From an uncultured bacterium (GTDB taxonomy: Bacteria; Actinomycetota; Actinomycetes; S36-B12): a stretch of DNA of 32,529 nucleotides. The translations under genes and the position numbers were made by a program. Shown here piece after piece: positions 14,812 through 27,345 of this stretch (its first letter is position 1; each line of letters opens with the position of its first letter). The notes beneath the pieces are model-generated. The model was given only the letters and a program-made list of their open reading frames with translations, searched no databases and was not told the origin of the DNA. The DNA is taken from positions 1 through 32,529 of the forward strand of contig CAINMH010000115.1 in the NCBI GenBank assembly GCA_903850745.1. Direction: 5' to 3'.

Positions 14812-14840
14812 CACGCTGTGATCTATCCCCCTGCTCCGTC

Positions 14841-17800
14841 CTACCTTCGCAACACTGGACAAATGAAGTCGCCTCGTGTCGATTTCCCGTTGACACCGAC
14901 TACGAGGAGCTTGGTCAACGCTGATCCCCGGCCGCCACCATTGAGGGCTACGAATCGGACGAAGTACGCACACCCGCCTACGAAGCCCGGGATCTTCGTA
15001 TTCGTGCGATTAACCACAACAGGAGCGCCAAATCGCGGTTCGGCCGTGAGCCGGTAGGAGACCTCATACGAGGTCACCCTGGCACCGGTCTTGGGTGCAC
15101 CCCAGCGGAGGTGTGCAACACCATCGGCAGTCACAACGATGCTCGGCCTTGTGACGACTCCTGGCGCGGCTACATCCGCCTTGACCTTGACGCCCAAAGT
15201 CATCGCCCGACGCTGGTTTCCTGGGGTAATTCCCACTGCCTGCAACATGTGCACACCTGCGGTGACCGACATGGGCAATTGAGTCACACCGCTGAACGAA
15301 CCACTCGCGTTAGTAAGCAACGTACCGACATAGATCGCCTTGGCCCGTGTTGCGTGACTGACGCGCGCGCTCCGACTCGTGGGCGGATTGATGTACAACT
15401 CCACATTGGAGTTGGCGCGGAAGCCGGTTCCTGACGTCTGTACGGAACGGTTCGCCTGCAAGAGAAGAACGCCGTTGGCGTCAAGGTTGAGCGGGTTACC
15501 CAATCCATCGAGACCATCAAGGCTCATCGTGAAGCCATTTCCGGAGATCTCCAGACCAGTTTCCTCGCTATTGGGCTCGACCACAACACTGTTATCGGGT
15601 CGACCGTTGACCAGAAGTGCCGAGTCGCCTGGCGGAAGTGGTGCCTGCATCGGTTGAACGACCGGCTCCAGCGGAGTCTCCAGTGGCACCGCACCGAGCG
15701 ATGGTCCAGACGGAGTGGAGTCGCCGTACTCGTTACGTGCCACAACCGTAAAGGTGTAGGTGCGTCCGTTGACCAATCCACGAATGGTGCAACTACCGCC
15801 GCTCGTCGAAGTAAAGGAGCATGTGGCGCCATTGGATGCCGTCACAATGAAACGTACAGGGGTGGTGCCCGAAGGCGCTCGAACCCCGGTGATCACCACC
15901 TGGCCATCACCGGCGACCACGGTGGGGGCTGGGAGCGTGTCTGGTGGCAGGCCGTTACGGGCCCACACGGCGAATAACGTGGTGTCGCCCGCAATGTTGA
16001 ACATTTCGCCCTCGACATAGCTTGTGCCTCGGCCATCTCGTCGGGTATTCCATCCGTCGAAGTGATAACCAGCAAGCTCCAGGGCTCCGCTGTTTCCGAG
16101 TACTACCACGCGTTTGCCTTCGTAGTAGGGGTTAGCCACGTCAGTGGGCGCGGACCCGCTCGCCGCACCATTCGCGTCGTACGTGATGAGGTAGTCAGGC
16201 AGAGCAACCCACTGGGCATACAACGTGACATCAACTGTGGGCACAAATGCTGAGCCCACCGCAAAGGCAGTGCCTGTGCCGTTGGCTACATCGTTCCAAC
16301 CGGCAAACGAGAATCCAGCCTTCTTCATGGTTCCTGCACCGAGGACCGTGATTGTGTCATCAGAGAAGTAGGGGCTCGATGCGTCGACAGGGACTGAGCC
16401 GCCGCTCTTGCCATTGCCGTTGTAGGTCACCGCGTATTGCGGCAGGCTCGTCCACTGCGCGTAGAGCACCAAATTCGCCGCAATTTGGAAGGTCGTACCT
16501 TGACTGTAGGTCGATCCTGAGCCATTCGCTGCTGTGTTCCATCCTGCGAATGAATAGTGCGCACGTGACAGCGCCCCCGGCCCGAGTACGAGCACGGAAT
16601 CACCCAGGTAGTACGGACTGCCGACATCGACAGGTGTCTGACCAGCCGTAGCTCCATTACTGTTATAGCCGATGGTGTGCTGCGGCAGCACCGTCCACTG
16701 CGCATACAAAGTGGTGTTCTGTGTCAGTAGGAACGACGCACCGGCGCTGTAGGGGGTGCCTGTCCCATTGGCAGCCGTATTCCATCCCGCGAACGTGTAG
16801 TGGTTCTTCACGAGGCTTCCCTCGCTCATGACAGTTGCGTATTCATCCGCGTAGTAGGGGCTTGCTGCATCGACAGGAGCGGTGCCACCCGTCGCGCCGT
16901 TGCTGTCGTACGTCATTGTGTAATCCGGCAGAATCTGCCACTGAGCGAACAACGTCGTATTGAGAGCCGCTGAGAATGTGTCGCCTGGCTGATAAGCCGT
17001 GCCACCGCCACCGGGCTGGGTGTTCCAACCGGTGAAGGAGTAGTTGTAGCGGCGCAGCGCTCCACTACCCAGACCAACGCCGGCCACCGTTACCGTCGAG
17101 TTCTCAATGAATGGGCTGGAGTTGTCCGTGGGCACTAGGCCTGCCGTCGAGCCATTGCCCTGATAGTCCACGCTGTAGTACGGAGCGCTCCACTGTGCGT
17201 AAAGAGTGACTCCAGTCGAAAGTGTGAACGTGTCTCCTGAGCTGTAGCCCGTACCCGAGCCATTCGCAGCAGTGTTCCAACCAAGGAAACGTCGCGTGCC
17301 ATTGACAAGCGAACCCGTGTTGCCGACAACTGTCACAGTTGATGACAAGACATACGGCGATGACGCATCAACCGGCACCGAGCCAGACACCGAACCATTA
17401 CCGTCATAGGTGACCTCGTAGACCCACTGCGCATACATTGTCGTCGCACCGGAGAGCGTGAAAGTGTCGTTCACCGCATAGTCCGTGCCCGAACCGTTAG
17501 CTGCAGTGTTCCAGCCATCAAAGACCGCAGCAGTCTTCGATAGACCACTGCCCGAGAGGACCGTCACTGTGGAGCCGTAGGCATAGGGGCTGGAGGAATC
17601 GATCGGCGCAGAGCCGCTCGTAGCGCCATTGGCGTCATAGGTGACCGCTGTCGGATCACCCATCCACTGCGCATACAGCGTCACGTTGGAGGCGATGGCG
17701 AAGGTGTCCGCCGGGCGGTACCACGTGCCCGAGCCATTCGCCGCAGTGTTCCACGCATCGAAGGTGTAATGCGCGCGCATGAGCGTGCCTGTGTTGCCCG

Positions 17801-20522
17801 CAACAGTCACCGTCGCGTTGTTCGCGTATTCAGTGTTGTCGCTCGGCACGCTGCCCGTTTCGGCCCCATTGTCGTTGTAGGTGATCGTGCGGACCACGGG
17901 TATTTGGAAGGCGATGATGTATCCCCCGTCCCTGCCATCCCCTCCGGCGGCGTTGTAATAGCCACCGCCACCGCCACTGCCGTAACGGCCCGTCGCGTCG
18001 TTGTCATGAATGATGGAGTTAACCCCACCGCCCATGCCGCCATAGGTGTTTGGCGGAGTGCCGCCCGCACCTCGGCCGGGTGTTCCGCCATATGCAGCTC
18101 CGCCACCGCCACCCGACCCAAACGGCCCGGTCACCGGATCATCGCTATTCATGCCGTTAAAGAGTCCGAGGCCTACCGAAATGCCCACGCCGCCTTCTCC
18201 GCCATTGGCGCCAGCGCCATCCGTTCCGTCGTAGTCAGCGCCCGCTCCGCCTCCAGCACCTGTCCACGTGGTCGTGCCGCCGGAGAATGAAGTCGATACG
18301 CCATCAACCGTGTTTCCACTTGCACCACCTACTGCGTTACTCGCGCCGGCTGCGCCATTCTGGCCACCGTTGGCGGCCCACGAATTCGACCCAATGGTGA
18401 GCGTCGAAGGATTGCCGTCCGTACCGTCGGCGCCGGCTGCGCCACCGGTGCCGGCCGTACCCAAGATGAAGCTCAGCGAATCACCCGCGGCGACACTCAC
18501 CCCGGTGTCGATCGTGACGTTGCCCCCTCCTCCTCCGGTGCCGCCATAGCCTGCTCCCCCGGCAAGTGCGCCTCCGCCTCCGCCGCCTCCGCCGCCAACG
18601 ACGACCAGATCAATATTGGTCACGCCGGAAGGAATTGTCGACGGGGCCGGAAAGCCTAGGCCGGAACCCCATACACAGATTGTGGGATCGAGTGTCGAAC
18701 TCAGTGCCGAGTAGCCGGCACACGTGGGTGGATCACTCCACTGCGCGTATAACGTCAATCCGGAAGTCATCGAAAATGTGCTGCCCGCGGACACCGCGGT
18801 ACCCGACCCATTGGCCGCAGTGTTCCAACCTACGAAGACCTTGCCGGTGTTTCGTAGTGTGCCCTTCCCAAGCGCCGTAACTGTTGAACCGTATGGTCGC
18901 GCGATATCCACCGGCACCGTGCCACTTGTCGCACCATTAGCGTCGTAGGCCATCGACGTCGGATCGCCGAGCCACTTCGCATAGAGCGTCGTGGCCGCGC
19001 TCATCGTGAGCGAGTCACCTGCGACATACGACGTGCCTGAACCATTGGCAGCGGTGTTCCACCCATTGAAGGTGTAGTTAGTGCGCGCCAACGTGCCGGT
19101 ATTGCCCGCAACCGTCGCACTAGCACCGGCGGCGTAGGCGGTGCCGTCAGTCGGCGCACTTCCCGATGTCGCCCCGTTGCCGTTGTAGGTGACCGAATAC
19201 GTTGAGGAGGTGCTGGCAAAGGTGCAGCCATTGGGGAAGGCCTTCAACGTGGGATAGGAGCCATCCGTCAGGTTCCACACGGCGGATGACAAGCCGGCGC
19301 TCGTCCAGTTGGATGCCGTCTTCATCCAGGCAGTGGTCTGGCCGGTAGCGACTCCCCCCGATGACGAGGAAATGGGTCCCTTCTCTACGGTCACGCCCGA
19401 GACTGTGAGGTCCCAGAAGTTTGTCACCGACGCGGGGGAAGAGGTTTGGTCGTTGACCACCCACCCGAAACTCTCACTTATCCCCGCGAAAGTGCCGGTG
19501 AACGGGGTCACAGCGAACGTGCGGGTTGTTGTGCCTGCGCTCTGGAGTACCCCAACGAAGCCTGCGCCATAGCCAGGGTGGGTGACCGTGCCTGCTGCAT
19601 AGCTGTCCGTTACCGCCGCCACGACAATCTCATCGGCGAATCCAGCCGCGTCTCTACCTGGATCCTCCGAGAACACATTCGCCGTCGTAAAGCTCTCCGA
19701 GACGGGTCTGCTGATCCGTCCCACGAGCCCTCCAGCGCCCCCGAGGATGGCCCCTGACGTGCCGACAGTCTTGACACTCCCGCCATCGACGCACGATTTG
19801 GTGAGGCTGCCGATCGCCGTGGGGCCGCTGTACCTGTCGGCGATTTCCCCGGCCAGCCCACCCACGCGCCCGCCGCCGATGACGGTGGGGTTACGCACGG
19901 CAACTTCCTCGATGACGCCTCCCTGGCTCTTACCGACCAGGGCGCCGACAAACTCCTCGCCAGGCGCTTGAACATCGGGGTCAACAAGATCAAGGTTCTT
20001 GATTACCGCCGGTGACGAGATCCACCCGAAAAGTCCCACGCCAGTCCATTGGCTGTAGGAGAGCGTCGTCGGCCCAGCGACCGTCAGGTTGCTGATCGCA
20101 TGGTTATTGCCGTCATAGCTGCTGCGAAAAGTGCACCAGTTACTGGAGCAGTTGACGCCAAGTCCAACATTCGACTCTCTACCCCCGATGGGATCGAATG
20201 TGTACCCGTCAAGGTCGATGTCCGTGGTCTGGATGAAGTATCGACTTGGTGTCGCGACGACCGTAGTCATGTCCTCGGTGCAGTCGGCGAGCTCTTGAAG
20301 TTCGAGGGCAGTCGAGACCTGATAGGGATCGCTTGAAGTACCGGTGCCTCCCGAGAAGGTCGGGCTACTGCCGCAGACACCATCCGTAGTCCACGACACA
20401 TAGGGAAGAAGCGGAGATGCCGAGGCGGCCTGTGGCACGGCAACACCGCTACCGACCGCGAATGCACCTGCGACCATCAGCGTCGTGAGGACCCCCGAGA
20501 TCAACCTGCCGACCCGATTCAT
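14841..20522 (-). CDS. Giant secreted protein: GLUG-like, InlB B-repeats, Gly-rich, Fn3
   Basis: A 1,893-residue exported protein, probably an adhesin or cell-surface filament. A Sec signal peptide ends at about A35 (AASA/S). Residues about 40-440 form a GLUG-type beta-helical region (GGLAGEI, GGLVGRI, GAGFVGVL). Two InlB B-repeats (about 441-600) come next. A glycine-rich domain (about 600-877) separates them from eight more InlB repeats (877-1525), each with an F-x-G-W-N-T-A-A-N-G-S-G-like core and an L-Y-A-Q-W end. An Fn3 domain, a linker domain and a final Fn3 domain complete it. There is no LPXTG and no C-terminal membrane helix, so it is released or held non-covalently. TAGGAG lies 5 nt before the ATG at 20522. 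Three 20-bp repeats lie upstream. Confidence 0.9.
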   Translation of the reverse strand: MNRVGRLISGVLTTLMVAGAFAVGSGVAVPQAASASPLLPYVSWTTDGVCGSSPTFSGGTGTSSDPYQVSTALELQELADCTEDMTTVVATPSRYFIQTTDIDLDGYTFDPIGGRESNVGLGVNCSSNWCTFRSSYDGNNHAISNLTVAGPTTLSYSQWTGVGLFGWISSPAVIKNLDLVDPDVQAPGEEFVGALVGKSQGGVIEEVAVRNPTVIGGGRVGGLAGEIADRYSGPTAIGSLTKSCVDGGSVKTVGTSGAILGGAGGLVGRISRPVSESFTTANVFSEDPGRDAAGFADEIVVAAVTDSYAAGTVTHPGYGAGFVGVLQSAGTTTRTFAVTPFTGTFAGISESFGWVVNDQTSSPASVTNFWDLTVSGVTVEKGPISSSSGGVATGQTTAWMKTASNWTSAGLSSAVWNLTDGSYPTLKAFPNGCTFASTSSTYSVTYNGNGATSGSAPTDGTAYAAGASATVAGNTGTLARTNYTFNGWNTAANGSGTSYVAGDSLTMSAATTLYAKWLGDPTSMAYDANGATSGTVPVDIARPYGSTVTALGKGTLRNTGKVFVGWNTAANGSGTAVSAGSTFSMTSGLTLYAQWSDPPTCAGYSALSSTLDPTICVWGSGLGFPAPSTIPSGVTNIDLVVVGGGGGGGGGALAGGAGYGGTGGGGGNVTIDTGVSVAAGDSLSFILGTAGTGGAAGADGTDGNPSTLTIGSNSWAANGGQNGAAGASNAVGGASGNTVDGVSTSFSGGTTTWTGAGGGAGADYDGTDGAGANGGEGGVGISVGLGLFNGMNSDDPVTGPFGSGGGGGAAYGGTPGRGAGGTPPNTYGGMGGGVNSIIHDNDATGRYGSGGGGGYYNAAGGDGRDGGYIIAFQIPVVRTITYNDNGAETGSVPSDNTEYANNATVTVAGNTGTLMRAHYTFDAWNTAANGSGTWYRPADTFAIASNVTLYAQWMGDPTAVTYDANGATSGSAPIDSSSPYAYGSTVTVLSGSGLSKTAAVFDGWNTAANGSGTDYAVNDTFTLSGATTMYAQWVYEVTYDGNGSVSGSVPVDASSPYVLSSTVTVVGNTGSLVNGTRRFLGWNTAANGSGTGYSSGDTFTLSTGVTLYAQWSAPYYSVDYQGNGSTAGLVPTDNSSPFIENSTVTVAGVGLGSGALRRYNYSFTGWNTQPGGGGTAYQPGDTFSAALNTTLFAQWQILPDYTMTYDSNGATGGTAPVDAASPYYADEYATVMSEGSLVKNHYTFAGWNTAANGTGTPYSAGASFLLTQNTTLYAQWTVLPQHTIGYNSNGATAGQTPVDVGSPYYLGDSVLVLGPGALSRAHYSFAGWNTAANGSGSTYSQGTTFQIAANLVLYAQWTSLPQYAVTYNGNGKSGGSVPVDASSPYFSDDTITVLGAGTMKKAGFSFAGWNDVANGTGTAFAVGSAFVPTVDVTLYAQWVALPDYLITYDANGAASGSAPTDVANPYYEGKRVVVLGNSGALELAGYHFDGWNTRRDGRGTSYVEGEMFNIAGDTTLFAVWARNGLPPDTLPAPTVVAGDGQVVITGVRAPSGTTPVRFIVTASNGATCSFTSTSGGSCTIRGLVNGRTYTFTVVARNEYGDSTPSGPSLGAVPLETPLEPVVQPMQAPLPPGDSALLVNGRPDNSVVVEPNSEETGLEISGNGFTMSLDGLDGLGNPLNLDANGVLLLQANRSVQTSGTGFRANSNVELYINPPTSRSARVSHATRAKAIYVGTLLTNASGSFSGVTQLPMSVTAGVHMLQAVGITPGNQRRAMTLGVKVKADVAAPGVVTRPSIVVTADGVAHLRWGAPKTGARVTSYEVSYRLTAEPRFGAPVVVNRTNTKIPGFVGGCAYFVRFVALNGGGRGSALTKLLVVGVNGKSTRGDFICPVLRR
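15950..17893 (-). repeat. Eight tandem InlB B-repeat units (C-terminal block)
   Basis: Eight units of about 78-84 codons each follow the scheme TYDxNGxxxGxxPxD..SPY, then V-x-x-x-x-x-L, then F-x-GWNTAANGSGT, then T-L-Y-A-Q-W. The units differ at many synonymous and non-synonymous sites, so they are old duplications rather than a recent expansion. Linkers such as LPDY and LPQH join the later units. Confidence 0.9.
17894..18723 (-). other. Glycine-rich domain inserted between InlB repeats
   Basis: About 275 codons between repeats 2 and 3 encode a glycine-rich domain with runs of up to nine glycines, GTGG, GAAG and GGAGAD turns. It starts with a cysteine-containing strand region (CAGYSALSS, TICVWGSG) and a hydrophobic strand (IDLVVVGGG) and ends in GGYIIAFQIP. 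The hydrophobic entry and exit strands suggest a folded glycine-rich beta-domain rather than a simple flexible linker. Confidence 0.8.
18724..19200 (-). repeat. Two InlB B-repeat units (N-terminal block)
   Basis: Two units with the same core as the C-terminal block (FNGWNTAANGSGT and FVGWNTAANGSGT) join the GLUG-like region to the glycine-rich domain. Both end in L-Y-A-[KQ]-W. Confidence 0.9.
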
Positions 20523-20560
20523 TGCTGCTCCTACCCTGAGATTCGTGCATGATCGCGTTT

Positions 20561-20620
20561 GGATACCGTATATGACATGTAGATACCAGTCATGACTGTA
20601 CGATACCGGCAATGATGATT
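20561..20620. repeat. Three tandem 20-bp units sharing GATACC-N4-ATGA
   Basis: GATACC occurs at 20562, 20582 and 20602 and ATGA at 20572, 20592 and 20612, so three units repeat at exactly 20 bp, close to two helical turns. The middle unit contains a perfect 12-bp palindrome, CAGTCATGACTG (20587-20598). The array sits 38 nt upstream of the giant gene's ATG and 77 nt upstream of the double-TetR ATG. Cooperative binding of a regulator on one DNA face is the natural reading; which protein binds is unknown. Confidence 0.8.
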
Positions 20621-20685
20621 GCTACTTCTCGGCAAAAATTCTTCGTCGTGAGTCGCAGCCCACACCGAGGTCGTATAGAAGGTCA

Positions 20686-20691
20686 TAACCT
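20686..20691 (+). promoter_or_regulatory. -10 box of a leaderless double-TetR promoter
   Basis: TAACCT is followed by exactly six bases and the ATG at 20698. A GTG at 20692 is in frame, but this geometry favours the ATG. Confidence 0.5.
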
Positions 20692-20697
20692 GTGCAC

Positions 20698-21882
20698 ATG
20701 AGTCAGCCGTCCAATGCGAGCTCGCGCCCCCTGCGCGCCGTCCGCAACGACGCAGTGATTCTGGAGGCAGCCACCCGCCTCGCTGCTGCAGAAGGCTGGT
20801 CGGGGCTACTCTTCCCCCGGGTGGCGGCTGATGCGGGCCTCTCCATCCGTCCGCTGCACGAGCGATTTGACGATCGAGAAAGCCTCGCCGCTGACCTTTG
20901 GCGACTTCGACTGGTGAGCGAAATTGTCCCCGCATTGGCAAATGTGGTGGCCGCAATCCACGGTAATGGCCCAGAGGCACTTGACGAGGCGCTTCAACGA
21001 TTCAGCCAGCCAAGCATTCCTCTGCAGGCGGCAAGCGAACTTCTCATGGTTGCGGCTACCTCACCCGATTTGTTCGCCGGAGTGCGCGCAGATTTGGGAG
21101 GGCACCTAGATTCCTGGCTGTCGCCCCGACCGAGGCTGCTCACCCGTGCTGAAGCCGCGCGCAATGCATTCGGGATCGCCGTCGCTCTAGGCCTGCTCAT
21201 AGCCGCTCGGCGCTATCCAAGTCGCGACGTGAATCTGACTGCCTACGCGACCGAATTATGGTGCGCCATGCAGAAACGATTAGCGCCCGCAAAACTGCCC
21301 AGTCGAATCGCCGAGCACCTTGATGTCGCAATCAACTTCGGCACTGACGACCCGGCATGGGAGAAGCTACTCAATGCCACAGTTGTCACCGTCGGTCAGC
21401 TCGGATACGAACGGGCAACCGTGACCGTCATCTCTGAGGCAGCGGGATTTACTAAGGGCTTGCTCTTTCGTCGTTACGAGACCAAACGTGACCTGTTTCT
21501 TGATGCCACCCGCCGTATGAGTGCGTCATCCATGGAAGCCAACCTCGCTTTCCAGCATGCCGTCTCCCAGGAATACTCCCCCGGCATCGCAGGTGCTGTC
21601 GCCATTCGTGAGTTCATGCGCCCCGGCCGCGAGTTGCTACGCAATATCTTTCTTGAGCAACTGCGCCTTGCGATCCATGACCCGGAAATCCGCGCCTCAA
21701 TTGACTCTGAGATCGATCCGGTCATGACTGACGAGGCAGCGCTGATGGGTGCTTCTGAGCAACTCATATACGTGCACACCGGTCAGGCACTGGCCAATGG
21801 AGTGGTGCAGTTGCAGGTGCTCTATCCGAGCGCTTGGAACCTCCCGTACGACGTCGTCGAGAGAGCGCTCGCTGCTGACTAG
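20698..21882 (+). CDS. Tandem double-domain TetR-family regulator
   Basis: A 394-residue protein made of two TetR-like halves. The first DNA-binding domain is at about residues 16-66 (VAADAGLSIRPLHERFDDRESL) and the second at about 221-270 (ISEAAGFTKGLLFRRYETKRDLF); each is followed by a helical ligand/dimer region. The first half is the more degenerate one. Ordinary TetR proteins of about 200 residues act as homodimers; this one could be a single-chain pseudo-dimer that reads a non-palindromic site. The thioesterase gene follows after 9 nt, and the giant secreted-protein gene is divergent across the 20-bp repeat array. Either or both could be its targets. Confidence 0.85.
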   Translation: MSQPSNASSRPLRAVRNDAVILEAATRLAAAEGWSGLLFPRVAADAGLSIRPLHERFDDRESLAADLWRLRLVSEIVPALANVVAAIHGNGPEALDEALQRFSQPSIPLQAASELLMVAATSPDLFAGVRADLGGHLDSWLSPRPRLLTRAEAARNAFGIAVALGLLIAARRYPSRDVNLTAYATELWCAMQKRLAPAKLPSRIAEHLDVAINFGTDDPAWEKLLNATVVTVGQLGYERATVTVISEAAGFTKGLLFRRYETKRDLFLDATRRMSASSMEANLAFQHAVSQEYSPGIAGAVAIREFMRPGRELLRNIFLEQLRLAIHDPEIRASIDSEIDPVMTDEAALMGASEQLIYVHTGQALANGVVQLQVLYPSAWNLPYDVVERALAAD

Positions 21883-21885
21883 ACT
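21880..21885 (+). promoter_or_regulatory. -10 box of a leaderless thioesterase promoter
   Basis: TAGACT overlaps the TAG stop codon of the TetR gene and lies 6 nt before the thioesterase ATG at 21892. The thioesterase can therefore be expressed without the upstream gene. Confidence 0.45.
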
Positions 21886-21891
21886 GCATAC

Positions 21892-22275
21892 ATGGTTGTA
21901 GTCCCGGTCTATCGCAGGTTTAGTGATTTGGATCCGCTCGGCCACGTTAACAACGTGGTCTACCACGACTACCTCCAAGAGGCCCGCGTCGTTCAGATGA
22001 GCGACATAGGCGCCATTGTGAATACGGACTTCGCCCAGATTGTGGTGAAGCAGGAAATTCGCCACATCAAGCCGCTGAGCTACTCACGCGAGCCGATCAT
22101 GATTGAGGTCAGCCTCACCTCGTTGACGCGTGCGACCTATTCACTCGCGTACCGGATCCTTGACGAAAATGGCGAGCTAGTCGCGGAAGCCACGTCGCAG
22201 CTGGCCGTGATCGATCCCACTTCGGGCCGACCGATTCGGATCCCCGAAGTTATCGCGGAGCGACTGAAGAACTAA
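21892..22275 (+). CDS. Acyl-CoA thioesterase, 4HBT hotdog family
   Basis: A 127-residue single hotdog-fold protein that hydrolyses acyl-CoA thioesters. The signature RFSDLDPLGHVNNVVYHDYLQEAR covers residues 9-32, with the likely catalytic D14 and the H18-V-N-N loop. It has no signal peptide and the normal length for a YbgC/4-hydroxybenzoyl-CoA-thioesterase-like homotetramer. Its position 9 nt after the TetR gene suggests joint control. The stop overlaps that of the convergent second TetR gene by 4 nt. Confidence 0.92.
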   Translation: MVVVPVYRRFSDLDPLGHVNNVVYHDYLQEARVVQMSDIGAIVNTDFAQIVVKQEIRHIKPLSYSREPIMIEVSLTSLTRATYSLAYRILDENGELVAEATSQLAVIDPTSGRPIRIPEVIAERLKN

Positions 22276-22928
22276 TCGACCGCTCGCGAGGCATCCACAG
22301 GTAGCGGCAAGTTCACTAGTCTGTGGGCCTTTGCAGGCGATATGCCGATCATAGGTAGCGCGACTTCTAGAGCGGTATCTGAGTCTGCCGGACTAACAGT
22401 TGGATCCAGCACTGCCACTTGGAGTGTGTGCATCAGCACCGCTACGAGATTGCCGACGCGTTGCTCAACGTGGTCAATTTTCAAGACACCACTAGCGACG
22501 AGTTGGCCAATGTGATCGGCGAGGTTGCGCGTCGATAGGGGCAAGGCCACCATGGCCTCCGCGGGACTATTTGCCACCATCCCTCCGAAGATCGGGTGCG
22601 TGACTCCCCCGCGTACGAATAGGCGCATCGGAACAACTAGTTGCTCAAGTGGGTCTGCAACCTCGGCCGTCATTTCGTCCACCCAGGTTTCCCATTCCGC
22701 CATAGCGCTAACTACCGCAGTAGCGAAGAGCAACTCCTTTGTTTCGAAGTGTTTGTAGAGGGTGCTGACTGACATGCCAACCTGCGCCGCGATCTCCTCA
22801 ACAGTGGCCGAGGGGCCTTGCTTCGCCAATACCTCCTGGCCAGCCCGGATGATGGCGGCTCGGTTGCGCGCGAAGTAGGCAGCCTTGCGTCCCTCCTGGG
22901 GACGCTTGGGGTCCGGTGCTGGCGCCAT
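22272..22928 (-). CDS. TetR/AcrR family transcriptional regulator
   Basis: A 218-residue regulator with one canonical TetR DNA-binding domain (about residues 22-70; TVEEIAAQVGMSVSTLYKHFETKELLF) and a helical ligand-binding half. An Arg/Lys-rich N-terminal arm (KRPQEGRKAAYFARNR) may touch the minor groove. A TAGACT box 7 nt before the ATG indicates a leaderless transcript. It is divergent from the RCC1 gene across a 104-nt AT-rich gap that holds an imperfect dyad (GGTA-N5-TACC at 22985-22997), a candidate operator. The ligand is unknown. Confidence 0.92.
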   Translation of the reverse strand: MAPAPDPKRPQEGRKAAYFARNRAAIIRAGQEVLAKQGPSATVEEIAAQVGMSVSTLYKHFETKELLFATAVVSAMAEWETWVDEMTAEVADPLEQLVVPMRLFVRGGVTHPIFGGMVANSPAEAMVALPLSTRNLADHIGQLVASGVLKIDHVEQRVGNLVAVLMHTLQVAVLDPTVSPADSDTALEVALPMIGISPAKAHRLVNLPLPVDASRAVD

Positions 22929-22935
22929 AGGGGGA

Positions 22936-22941
22936 AGTCTA
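22936..22941 (-). promoter_or_regulatory. -10 box of a leaderless TetR promoter
   Basis: TAGACT on the minus strand is followed by TCCCCCT and the ATG at 22928. No Shine-Dalgarno sequence is possible in the C-rich gap. Confidence 0.5.
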
Positions 22942-23032
22942 GAGGGTCACGCAACAGGCTAAATCAAAGCAATACTTGTATATAGGTATATTGTACCATT
23001 ATTCGTCCTTCCCTTCGTCCCCTGAGGTCCAG

Positions 23033-25198
23033 ATGCGAGTTTCGCCCCGTGCCATCGCACTTTCCGCCGTAGCGCTCGCCCTGGCCATCGCCGGGAACCT
23101 AGCGACCAGCGCGCCCTCGCAAGCTGTCGTTCCCACGCCACCGGGCTCCCCGACCTGGGTGCACACGGTGCCGCTATCAGCCCACTCGTTACAGGTGTCG
23201 TGGCTCGCCCCGAAATTTGATGGCGGGTCGCCTATAACCGACTACCGCGTCCAATACCGCAAACTCAGGACTGACGTATGGCGCACGGTCAGCCACGCGG
23301 CGTCCGATGCCACATCAATCGTGGTGCGCGGCCTCACCGAGAGCTCGACGTACGAGTTCCGTGTCTTCGCCATCAACGAAGAGGGCGCAGGTCTCGAGAA
23401 CATCGCGTCCACCCCTGTCGCTGTTGGCAACACCTCATCCTGTGCAATCACGGTCCAGGGCGCTGTCCAGTGCTGGGGGTCAAACACGGGTGGCCAACTC
23501 GGTACCGGCTCTGACGAGAATAGTGCCGAGCCCACGGTTGTGACGGGAATAGACGGACTAACGCCAGCGTCCACTGCTACTTCCATCGCTGTCGGCGAAA
23601 GCTTTGCGTGCGCGGTCATGTTGGACCAAACAGTTGAATGCTGGGGAAGCGGCGCGACTGGTTCTTTAGGTGATGGCGCACGGACAGACCAATACACCCC
23701 CGTCCATGTGAGTGGCTTCGATGGCCTGACACCGGAAACCTCTGTTGTATCGGTCACCACAGGAAATCAACACGCCTGCGCGCTCACTTCCGTAGGCACC
23801 GTGTGGTGCTGGGGATATGGCTACAACGGACAAATGGGAGACGGCGCCCAGGTTAGTCCTGCGACGCCCGTCCTAAGTGGTATCGATGGCTCTAGCGAGG
23901 GATACCTAGCCACCTCAATATCGGCCGGAAGTCAGCACACGTGTGCCGTGGTGATATCTGAAGAAGTCTTGTGTTGGGGCAAGAACTCCATGGGTCAACT
24001 CGGGACAGGTAACACCGCTAACAGGAGTTCTCCGTTTGCGGTCGATGCCACCTACGAGGTGAAAAGCGTTTCAGCAGGTTCCGAACACACGTGCGTCACT
24101 CACATTGATGGATCTGCGACATGCTGGGGATCCAATATGGGCGGCCAACTAGGAGATGGGTCAGATTCAGACTCCAATGATCCAGTAAGTGTCGAGGGCA
24201 TCGACGGCGAGTCGATTTCAAGTTCGGCCATTGCCTTGAGTGCGGGCCAGTTCTCTACGTGCCAAATCACCGAGGACGGATTTATTGGTTGTTGGGGTGA
24301 CAATGGATATGGACAACTTGGACGTGGGGACTACGACGCGGAACTTACTCCCAGTTGGGTCTCGGGCCTGTATGGAGGCGTTGCTGATAACGCGGTGCGA
24401 GCCGTTTCGATTAGCGCACATAACTCGCAACACGTGTGTGCCGGACTCGCAACAGGACAGTTGGCATGTTGGGGCATGAATGAGTCTGGCGAACTCGGAG
24501 ACGGGACCACAACCGACAGGTTGGTCCCGACGCTCGTGCCAGCGTTCACTGCGGTCGATGCTTCGACGAGTGTCAGCACCGGAGCATTCGGTACTACACC
24601 GCAAGCACTACCCATTGTTGTGACGGCCCCGACGGCACCCCAGACAGTGGAGACGACCCGTCTAGCGGCGGAGTCAATCACAGTCTCGTGGTCCGCACCT
24701 GCATCGAACGGACAGGGTCGCATCGATCGCTACCAAGTGAGCTACCGCGCCAGTGGTAGCGTCGCTTGGACAAACGTCAATTCCGATTCCGGTAGTGCAC
24801 GTCAACTCCGCATCACCGGATTAGTCGCTGGAAAGACATACGAGTTCCAGGTGCGTGCTCACAATTCCGCAGGATTGAGTGCAGCATCTCCGAGCGTCAC
24901 GGCTACGGTTGCCTCGACTGCTTCAGCACCGAGAGGTGCGGAGGGTTCTTGGGCCCGTGGACGCATCACCGTTACATGGGAAGCCGCCAAGTCGAAGGCC
25001 GATAGCCCGGTCATCGGCTATGTTGCAAGTTGCAGCTCATCTGAGGCGGACACGCTCAGAAGCCGAGTCGCAGCGAGTGCACGGACGGCATCCATCACCG
25101 CTCGAGCCAATGGCAAGTACTCCTGCCGGGTAGCGGCACTGACAGCAGCGGGGCGCGGTGTCGGCTCAGCAAGAATCGTTGTCAGGACGGGCGCCTAA
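23033..25198 (+). CDS. Secreted Fn3-RCC1 beta-propeller-Fn3 protein
   Basis: A 721-residue exported protein. A Sec signal peptide ends near A31 (APSQA/V). An Fn3 domain (about 38-132) is followed by seven RCC1 repeats (about 136-505), enough for a complete seven-bladed propeller. Every blade carries C-x9-C-W-G followed by an x-G-Q-L-G-like turn; the paired cysteines on neighbouring strands could form seven disulfides outside the cell. Two further Fn3-type domains (about 533-721) end the protein. There is no LPXTG or membrane anchor. GAGG lies 5 nt before the ATG at 23033. Binding to a protein or polysaccharide ligand is a reasonable inference; the ligand is unknown. Sulfatase follows after 81 nt. 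Confidence 0.9.
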   Translation: MRVSPRAIALSAVALALAIAGNLATSAPSQAVVPTPPGSPTWVHTVPLSAHSLQVSWLAPKFDGGSPITDYRVQYRKLRTDVWRTVSHAASDATSIVVRGLTESSTYEFRVFAINEEGAGLENIASTPVAVGNTSSCAITVQGAVQCWGSNTGGQLGTGSDENSAEPTVVTGIDGLTPASTATSIAVGESFACAVMLDQTVECWGSGATGSLGDGARTDQYTPVHVSGFDGLTPETSVVSVTTGNQHACALTSVGTVWCWGYGYNGQMGDGAQVSPATPVLSGIDGSSEGYLATSISAGSQHTCAVVISEEVLCWGKNSMGQLGTGNTANRSSPFAVDATYEVKSVSAGSEHTCVTHIDGSATCWGSNMGGQLGDGSDSDSNDPVSVEGIDGESISSSAIALSAGQFSTCQITEDGFIGCWGDNGYGQLGRGDYDAELTPSWVSGLYGGVADNAVRAVSISAHNSQHVCAGLATGQLACWGMNESGELGDGTTTDRLVPTLVPAFTAVDASTSVSTGAFGTTPQALPIVVTAPTAPQTVETTRLAAESITVSWSAPASNGQGRIDRYQVSYRASGSVAWTNVNSDSGSARQLRITGLVAGKTYEFQVRAHNSAGLSAASPSVTATVASTASAPRGAEGSWARGRITVTWEAAKSKADSPVIGYVASCSSSEADTLRSRVAASARTASITARANGKYSCRVAALTAAGRGVGSARIVVRTGA

Positions 25199-25244
25199 CA
25201 ACGGCCGTCTGCGCCCTCATTAGACGTCTGGGGGGCGTACGCAT

Positions 25245-25250
25245 TAGTCT
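25245..25250 (+). promoter_or_regulatory. Candidate -10 box for the sulfatase gene
   Basis: TAGTCT fits TANNNT and would give a leader of about 22 nt that carries AAGGAG 6 nt before the GTG. Just upstream lie an AGACGTCT palindrome and CGCCC/GGGCG arms, a possible weak hairpin after the RCC1 gene. Confidence 0.35.
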
Positions 25251-25279
25251 TCGGGGACCTGTCCACAAAGGAGACTCCC

Positions 25280-26926
25280 GTGTCCAAGCGCGCCCTACTC
25301 ATCACTGGTGTTGCGGCGCTTGCGCTTGCGCTCGGCGCGACCGGTGCCTCGGTGATCGCCCAACCACTACCGGTCACCGCCGCACCAGCGCCGGCCCCCG
25401 CCTCGCCCTCGGCCAAAGACAACCGTCCCAATTTCGTGATCATCCAGACCGATGACCAAACGGTGCAAGATCTGTCTGTCATGTCGCGCACTAAGCGACT
25501 AATGCGTGACAAGGGCACAATTTTCACGCAGATGATGACTCCGTTCGCCATTTGTTGTCCATCGCGAGCCGCGATGATGTCTGCTGCCTATCCTCACAAC
25601 AACAAAGTGCAGGCAAACTTTCCGCCATCAGGTGGCTATGGCGTGTGGGAGAAAAACAACGGCAAGAAGTTTGTTGGCGCATGGCTGAAGAACGCCGGCT
25701 ACCACACGGTGCACATTGGCAAATACATCAACGGCTACGGCTACATCAACAATCCGCTAGCTCGCGATCCTCAGGGCTGGTCTGAATGGCACGGCTCGAC
25801 CGACCTGTCGACCTACCAGATGTGGGGCTACCGACTCAACGAACCAGACGGAAGCAATGTCTACGGAAAGTTCAATGTCGAGAACCCCGAGTTCTACTCA
25901 ACCGATGTCTACCGCGGAATTGCTGAGAATGTCATCAAAGAGCAGGCCAAGGAAGACGGCCCGTTCTATCTGCAGGTTGCCTTCCTCGCACCTCATGTTG
26001 AGACGAAGCCACTGAAGGAATCCGCAATCAAGAACCTGCTCATCAAGTACGGCAAGAACCCCGGTCAAATGGTGGATGCCGATGATCCGGATCCCGCCAC
26101 GGGCATTCAGACGATCCCGCCACGTCCAGCTCCTCGTCATCAGAACTCGTTGAGAAACGAGCAACTCGACAACGATCCGAGCTTCAACGAAGCCGACGTC
26201 AGTGACAAGCATCCATTCATTCAGGACTTGCCCATTCTTACTGATGAGAAGATCCAGGACCTCAAGGACGACAATCGTCAGCGCCGTCAGTCGCTGCTCG
26301 CGGTCGACCAGGCTGTCGAGGGCATCATCAACACGCTGCGTCAGACGAATCAGCTCGACAATACCTACATTGTCTTTGTTGGTGACAATGGCTACGTGCT
26401 CGGTCAGCACCGGATCAGCAAGGGCAAGTACTTCCCGTACGAGCCTGCGCTCAACATTCCGTTCATCATGCGTGGACCAGGTGTACAGGCAGGCGCACGT
26501 GTTGATCAGATGGTGACCCTGATGGACGTCACGCCGACTGTGCTTGATTTTGCGGGCGTGAAGGCCACGGGACGCGTGCCTGACGGCATCTCGCTACGCA
26601 AGATTCTCACGGCTGGGACGCCGATCGTAAATCGCACTCTTCTCCTGTCAAGTGGCCCTCAGAGTGCACCCAGCGGAGAGCCACTTCCGATGTTTGATGG
26701 CGTACGCAACTCGAGATACTCCTACTGGAAGTACGAGGATGGCTTCGAAGAGCTATATGACCGCGAGATTGATCCATATGAAATGGAGTCTGTCGCGAAC
26801 AACGCTCGCTACGCCGAGGTCAAGGCCGCACTGCTTGCCGAGTGGAATGCGCTGAAGGATTGCGCCGGCAAAGAGTGCCAGGTGGCTTCAGCAGTCATCC
26901 CAGATCCTGAGCCCAACACAGGGTGA
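25280..26926 (+). CDS. Secreted sulfatase (alkaline phosphatase superfamily)
   Basis: A 548-residue arylsulfatase-type enzyme that removes sulfate from organic sulfate esters, probably polysaccharides. A Sec signal peptide (about 1-35) precedes a Pro/Ala-rich linker. The formylglycine motif is C92-C93-P-S-R96, with C92 the residue to be modified. Metal and active-site residues D58-D59 (QTDDQ), K148 (HIGKY), H239 (APHV) and D369-N370 (GDNGY) are in place. The sequence resembles the GNS-type branch (CCPSR). The start is GTG at 25280 with AAGGAG. No maturase (FGE) gene is in the window. Its neighbours are secreted adhesin-like proteins, which suggests extracellular polymer use. Confidence 0.95.
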   Translation: MSKRALLITGVAALALALGATGASVIAQPLPVTAAPAPAPASPSAKDNRPNFVIIQTDDQTVQDLSVMSRTKRLMRDKGTIFTQMMTPFAICCPSRAAMMSAAYPHNNKVQANFPPSGGYGVWEKNNGKKFVGAWLKNAGYHTVHIGKYINGYGYINNPLARDPQGWSEWHGSTDLSTYQMWGYRLNEPDGSNVYGKFNVENPEFYSTDVYRGIAENVIKEQAKEDGPFYLQVAFLAPHVETKPLKESAIKNLLIKYGKNPGQMVDADDPDPATGIQTIPPRPAPRHQNSLRNEQLDNDPSFNEADVSDKHPFIQDLPILTDEKIQDLKDDNRQRRQSLLAVDQAVEGIINTLRQTNQLDNTYIVFVGDNGYVLGQHRISKGKYFPYEPALNIPFIMRGPGVQAGARVDQMVTLMDVTPTVLDFAGVKATGRVPDGISLRKILTAGTPIVNRTLLLSSGPQSAPSGEPLPMFDGVRNSRYSYWKYEDGFEELYDREIDPYEMESVANNARYAEVKAALLAEWNALKDCAGKECQVASAVIPDPEPNTG

Positions 26927-26949
26927 TTTCGCTACGGCACGCGACGAGA

Positions 26950-26955
26950 TAGCCT
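26950..26955 (+). promoter_or_regulatory. -10 box of a leaderless zinc-ribbon gene promoter
   Basis: TAGCCT is followed by exactly six bases and the ATG at 26962. Confidence 0.5.
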
Positions 26956-26961
26956 TCCGCC

Positions 26962-27345
26962 ATGAGCGGTCTCGAAGATCTTGCGCGGATCGAAGCCGAG
27001 TTGGCTGCCGGCAAGAACGGTAAGGCGCTCCGGCTTGCCTGGAACGTAGTGCTCGACGCACTACGCCGTAAGGATGTCGAAGTGCTGCGTCGGGCTGCCG
27101 ACCTCAGCACTCAGATAGCCAAAGCCTCATCGGGCAAGGACCGTGAAAGTGCGGAGCAGCTCGCGCGCTATGCGGTGGCGTCCATCGACGATATCGAGAA
27201 CGGCACCACACAGCCATCCTTCTGGCAAAAGGTCCTCGGCAAGTCGGCGATTCCAACAAAGAAATGTCCAGACTGTGCCGAGACGATCAAGCGCGAGGCA
27301 CAGGTCTGCCGTTTCTGTGGATACCGATACGCGCCTTCGGAATAG
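26962..27345 (+). CDS. Small protein with C-terminal zinc ribbon
   Basis: A 127-residue cytosolic protein. Residues 1-80 are helical and charged. The C-terminal C102-x2-C105-x10-C116-x2-C119 zinc ribbon (KCPDCAETIK, CRFCGYRY) is of the UPF0547 type found at the ends of many bacterial proteins. The helical part is not recognised. The gene is preceded by a leaderless -10 box and converges with the 708-residue secreted orphan after 18 nt. Confidence 0.8.
   Translation: MSGLEDLARIEAELAAGKNGKALRLAWNVVLDALRRKDVEVLRRAADLSTQIAKASSGKDRESAEQLARYAVASIDDIENGTTQPSFWQKVLGKSAIPTKKCPDCAETIKREAQVCRFCGYRYAPSE

Follow-up and report, generated by a model that had tools for sequence, protein, structure and literature searches.

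Three Head-to-Tail Operator-Like Repeats Between a Double-TetR Gene and a Giant Secreted Protein Gene in an Uncultured Actinobacterium

The window analyzed here is a stretch of 32,529 nucleotides (contig CAINMH010000115.1) from an uncultured actinobacterium. The gap between two of its divergent genes, one encoding a giant secreted protein and the other a double-TetR regulator (P0001), contains the motif GATACC-N4-ATGA in three exact copies at 20-bp steps (Table 1). The array is real and non-random, and it probably represents a row of three non-palindromic operators, arranged head-to-tail, to which the adjacent double TetR would bind. An initial annotation had read the repeats as a protein-binding array controlling one or both of the neighboring genes; this interpretation is partly supported, being right in outline and needing correction for the double nature of the regulator.

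Table 1. Features of the window discussed in the text.
Feature	Position	Strand	Description
Presence/absence cassette (giant gene, array and regulator)	14817..21890	.	7.07 kb; about 16 bp in G001
Giant secreted protein, 1893 aa	14841..20522	-	ATG at 20522; signal peptide, Flg_new repeats, fn3
Divergent intergenic region with the array	20523..20691	.	169 bp; GC 48% vs 59% for the window
Shine-Dalgarno sequence of the giant gene	20528..20532	-	AGGAG
Operator-like box 1	20562..20575	+	GATACC-GTAT-ATGA; 17-mer ATACCGTATATGACATG (ATACCGT-ATA-TGACATG)
Weak promoter candidate of the giant gene, inside the array	20565..20593	-	ATGACT (20593-20588), 17 nt, TACGGT (20570-20565)
Operator-like box 2	20582..20595	+	GATACC-AGTC-ATGA; 17-mer ATACCAGTCATGACTGT (ATACCAG-TCA-TGACTGT)
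Operator-like box 3	20602..20615	+	GATACC-GGCA-ATGA; 17-mer ATACCGGCAATGATGAT (ATACCGG-CAA-TGATGAT)
Double-TetR regulator P0001, 396 aa	20692..21882	+	GTG at 20692; 394 aa from ATG at 20698

The Repeat Array

The positions first annotated for the constant blocks are exact (GATACC at 20562, 20582 and 20602; ATGA at 20572, 20592 and 20612). In pairwise comparisons among the three copies the 10 block columns are identical throughout (30/30), while the 10 fill columns match in 5 of 30 cases, fewer than the roughly 7.5 that chance would give. The three-copy periodicity score of the gap is 8.2, a value reached by none of 5000 dinucleotide-preserving shuffles, the best of which scored 5.96. Constant blocks with random fill are what a protein-binding array should show and a recent duplication should not, and the distinction drawn on this point in the initial annotation is borne out by these counts. 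Moreover, when 2428 windows of 260 bp from the window and the related loci were scored, the array was the only high-scoring periodicity match of its kind in the window; the other 260-bp windows that equaled or exceeded its score consisted of low-complexity sequence, gaps (N) or in-frame repeats, as judged from the printed units. No fourth copy is recognizable by sequence beside the three boxes. The corresponding 17-mers succeed one another with 3 bp in between and are not palindromic, pairing at 0, 3 and 2 of 8 positions, respectively.

The genome scan for phased boxes that had been suggested at the outset gave no random recurrence, since the two-box pattern occurs at one place in the 2.57-Mb genome, also when one mismatch is allowed. 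With one mismatch in 166 genomes of the order, three other matches were found vs two for a reversed control, which corresponds to background. Exact single boxes number eight genome-wide, three of them being the copies of the array. Single boxes at one mismatch (142, vs 34 for the reversed pattern) were set aside as evidence because the listed matches are scattered singles and the reversed pattern differs in word composition.

The boxes span 39 bp to 93 bp upstream of the ATG of the giant gene, and the regulator starts 76 bp from the array (within about 80 bp). A stricter scan for the sigma-70 consensus found no promoter in the gap, the candidate of Table 1 included. A consensus scan for terminators and a search for tRNAs found none, and an Rfam search of the window gave no match and so no sign of a riboswitch-type RNA leader.

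The Double-TetR Regulator and Its Resemblance to Mce3R

P0001 is a single polypeptide of about 400 aa in which Pfam recognizes TetR_N domains in two stretches, with helix-turn-helix motifs (HTHs) near residues 22-66 and 226-271. Both HTHs are kept across 28 aligned proteins of the family, in which R58 and K265 are invariant. In the same taxonomic family, 27 of 85 genomes contain matches to P0001 at E<=0.001, some of these matches being ordinary single TetRs, and further matches were found in other families of the same order. Those relatives that have names come from MAGs of actinobacteria or uncultured bacteria, and several of the MAGs are named after lakes (e.g., Lac Pavin). A search of the genome contigs with P0001 gave no match. 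As the alignment of 28 members proved too diverse, a closer sub-alignment was used. The AF2 model built from an alignment with nine relatives has a pLDDT of 89.3 and a pTM of 0.89, compared with a pLDDT of 35 for the single-sequence prediction.

In a Foldseek search of the PDB with this model, the sole match at E<0.001 was Mce3R of Mycobacterium tuberculosis bound to DNA (Rv1963c, PDB 9b7y; E 5.4e-7). The match covers the full length (415 columns, 17% identity) with a TM score of 0.56 and an rmsd of 7.5, which suggests that the two halves of P0001 are arranged somewhat differently from those of Mce3R. Similarity at the sequence level is seen only by profile and only in HTH2 (positions 219-273, 44.8 bits), and Mce3R was not among the matches of a single-sequence search with P0001. 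Mce3R is an asymmetric TetR pseudo-dimer made of one polypeptide, whose two different HTHs lie 32 A apart and occupy neighboring major grooves of a non-palindromic site; it binds asymmetric sites of 25 bp through these non-identical HTHs (PMC11667970). Besides the two TetR units and the chain of about 400 aa, it shares with P0001 a divergent target and asymmetric sites in multiple copies, both of which are candidates in the window. The DNA-contacting residues R53 (in HTH1) and K262 (following HTH2) of Mce3R may correspond to R58 and K265 of P0001, going by position in the HTH and not by residue alignment. The two systems differ in that the Mce3R sites are 25 bp long and 53 bp apart, whereas the boxes follow at 20-bp steps, and in that Mce3R controls a lipid-transport operon while P0001 adjoins a giant secreted protein.

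Direct repeats beside a TetR-like gene had been considered unusual in the initial annotation. There is no paradox, because a homodimer needs a palindrome but a fused pair that carries two specificities does not: P0001 is a double TetR, and its nearest solved relative binds non-palindromic DNA. Two unlike blocks centered 9 bp apart would fit an Mce3R-like protein. Classical pairs of the TetR-tetA type likewise have the regulator divergent from its target across a gap of <200 bp (PMC3511530), but their operators are palindromes read by homodimers, whereas the boxes pair at 0-3 of 8 positions. Phased direct repeats are also found in iterons and other arrays with a period of about 20 bp. The cassette described here has no replication gene and its array lies instead in a divergent promoter gap; in place of the replication initiator that adjoins plasmid iterons, the neighbors encode the secreted protein, the TetR and a thioesterase.

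Operator-Like Sites at Related Loci

The upstream gaps of 51 double-TetR genes from actinobacterial genomes were compared. Three ortholog groups conserve a site of 17-22 bp (AAAGCACACGGTGCTTT, ATAGCACACGGCACTTTT and TAAAGCACAGTTCACTTTA), whereas the non-coding DNA around it has diverged in large part. Such ortholog footprints were used in place of shuffle tests at each locus, as the tests on single repeats or palindromes in individual relatives were mostly not significant alone. Among perfect palindromes with 7-bp arms in 40 gaps, a total length of 17 is the commonest (7, vs 1-5 at other lengths), although one of these seven belongs to a longer hairpin (G032:C142). A length of 17 bp (7-3-7) is therefore a likely footprint core. 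Several relatives have clear palindromes, which means that strict asymmetry is no rule of the family.

The closest parallel to the boxes lies in the gap between a double-TetR gene and another giant secreted gene in G055:C294 and its near-copy G057:C12, where ATACCGCATTGCGGTAT is followed, after 4 bp, by ATACCAAAGTGCCGGAT. Here the ATACC edge recurs at a 21-bp step in the same orientation as in the window; no other pair of ATACC at 19-22 bp was found in the 411 kb searched, and a uniform base model predicts about 0.1 such pair for the searched gaps. Furthermore, the regulators of these two loci are the only ones among the 51 whose second recognition helix begins with TKG, as it does in P0001. 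Both the ATACC match and the link between TKG and ATACC are suggestive, coming from one independent locus and one comparison. Otherwise the sites of the relatives differ from the boxes, and the array was found in no other genome because P0001 has no close ortholog (best identity 42%) for a base-by-base comparison.

Other repeats were observed in these gaps. The gap upstream of the second double TetR of the same genome, the paralog on contig C8, lacks an array of the GATACC-N4-ATGA type; this locus (L005, G000:C8:22000-32000) has an inverted repeat, GCGAAGT...ACTTCGC, and no direct repeats. On the minus strand of L045 (2277-2347, G020:C50), a double-TetR gene is preceded by a triple repeat with a 21-bp unit (AGGNAAA...), which is suggestive; the regulator of this locus groups with P0001 in the tree. 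In G104:C31, TACTCNNGATAG occurs twice at 24 bp, which is likewise suggestive.

A Presence/Absence Cassette

The giant protein had been annotated as an adhesin. The 1893-aa product is secreted and has a signal peptide, ten Flg_new (Listeria-Bacteroides) repeats, a Gly-rich stretch and fn3 domains; a role as an adhesin is plausible but a guess. In G001, a genome of the same genus, the flanks align at 89-92% and the missing block corresponds exactly to the giant gene, the array and the regulator. These three elements are linked as one unit, although gain and loss are indistinguishable from one comparison, and they appear to come and go as one cassette. In the comparison of orthologous loci proposed in the initial annotation, the cassette was wholly absent from G001; the best relatives of P0001 are 40-42% identical and carry other sites. 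A transposon was considered and is unsupported, as the cassette has no terminal inverted repeats of note and inspection of the junction by eye revealed no target-site duplication.

A second block of the window (22269-26992) is likewise missing from G001. It consists of a minus-strand gene for a single TetR (22272-22928) and two plus-strand genes, one encoding a secreted RCC1/fn3 protein (from about 22976) and the other a sulfatase (25280-26926); its divergent gap contains the near-palindrome AATACTTGTATATAGGTATATT.

Among about 50 double-TetR loci, ten relatives, the C8 paralog included, have a large secreted protein as their divergent neighbor. By Pfam, nine of these ten proteins carry fn3, Ig, He_PIG, Gly-rich, Flg_new or OmpA domains, and the tenth carries a GDSL-like domain. 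The C8 regulator, for example, is divergent from a 1377-aa secreted protein with fn3 repeats. Other double-TetR relatives adjoin unrelated genes, so that the secreted neighbor is a tendency and no rule; as for the single TetR genes of the same genome, 2 of about eleven are divergent from secreted proteins. At L126 (G000:C64:16000-25107), the divergent neighbor of a single TetR gene is a secreted protein of 684 aa that, by eye, resembles a chitin-binding/LPMO protein at its start. Several of the divergent secreted proteins (L039, L047, L048, L049 and L058) end in an OmpA-like C-terminal domain beside repeats of the Ig/fn3 type. The largest expansion seen is that of G033, with about ten double-TetR genes (L042, L049, L053-L055, L058, L063 and L064).

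Proposed Mechanism and Alternative Explanations

According to the explanation favored here, P0001 would fold as a covalent TetR pseudo-dimer whose two different HTHs read unlike half-sites about 9-10 bp apart, one on the GATACC side and the other on the ATGA side. Each box would then have a polarity that permits direct repetition, and the two helical turns between boxes would align three P0001 molecules on one face of the DNA; the spacing suggests that binding is cooperative. Bound P0001 would cover the promoter region of the giant gene and repress it, until a small ligand releases it from the boxes. The initial annotation had left the target as the giant gene, the regulator or both. A gap of <200 bp between divergent genes is a published predictor of direct control by TetR proteins (PMC3511530); as the gap is of this kind and the array and both genes are present or absent together, the adjacent double TetR is the most likely binder and the giant gene the most likely target. 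Autoregulation is probable, as the regulator starts so close to the array.

A different host regulator, global or unlinked, might instead bind the boxes while the double TetR acts elsewhere. The link between P0001 and the boxes is that of a candidate, and the paralog of the same genome has no such boxes. Nevertheless, the pair of boxes occurs nowhere else in the genome, which is not predicted for a global regulator and is what a dedicated local regulator needs; in addition, the array appears to move with the regulator in one cassette and the relatives have operator-like sites in the same gap, so that this alternative is unlikely. It is improbable that the repeats are duplicated elements of stacked promoters (e.g., ATGAC as -35 and TA-NNN-T as -10): the array does contain ATGACT-N17-TACGGT (minus strand) and TACGAT (plus strand), but the sigma-70 scan recognizes no promoter, the -10-like hexamers use fill bases and vary between the copies, and the invariant GATACC is unlike either hexamer.

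Slippage could also give three equal steps of 20 bp. A functionless tandem duplication in decay is nonetheless hardly credible, since decay should strike all columns and not leave 10 perfect beside 10 random ones, and a fresh duplication would retain the fill. Finally, it is very unlikely that the same regulator uses the boxes in another register (ATGA-N6-GATACC) or with the opposite sign, activating the giant gene. The 20-bp period permits either pairing of the blocks, 9 or 11 bp apart, but GATACC-N4-ATGA gives three complete copies vs two, and ATACC forms the outer edge of the 17-mer in C294. As regards the sign, activation is known for some TetR proteins. Most of those studied act as repressors (PMC3511530).

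Significance

If the reading of the array as three polarized operators for P0001 is true, the single double-TetR structure found, that of Mce3R, would gain a broad family of counterparts with a compact, easily tested natural operator array, and it would become clear how fused regulators escape the palindrome rule of TetR sites. The relatives with matched operators would offer a ready set for working out the recognition code of the two HTHs. For the lake actinobacteria, the locus represents a cassette, subject to gain and loss, that combines giant surface proteins with a candidate switch. More tentatively, and with considerable doubt, freshwater actinobacteria might possess a whole family of such self-contained cassettes, each combining a giant secreted surface protein with its own covalent-heterodimer TetR on a polarized head-to-tail array, and each with a private operator code that would allow many of them to coexist within a single genome without cross-talk.
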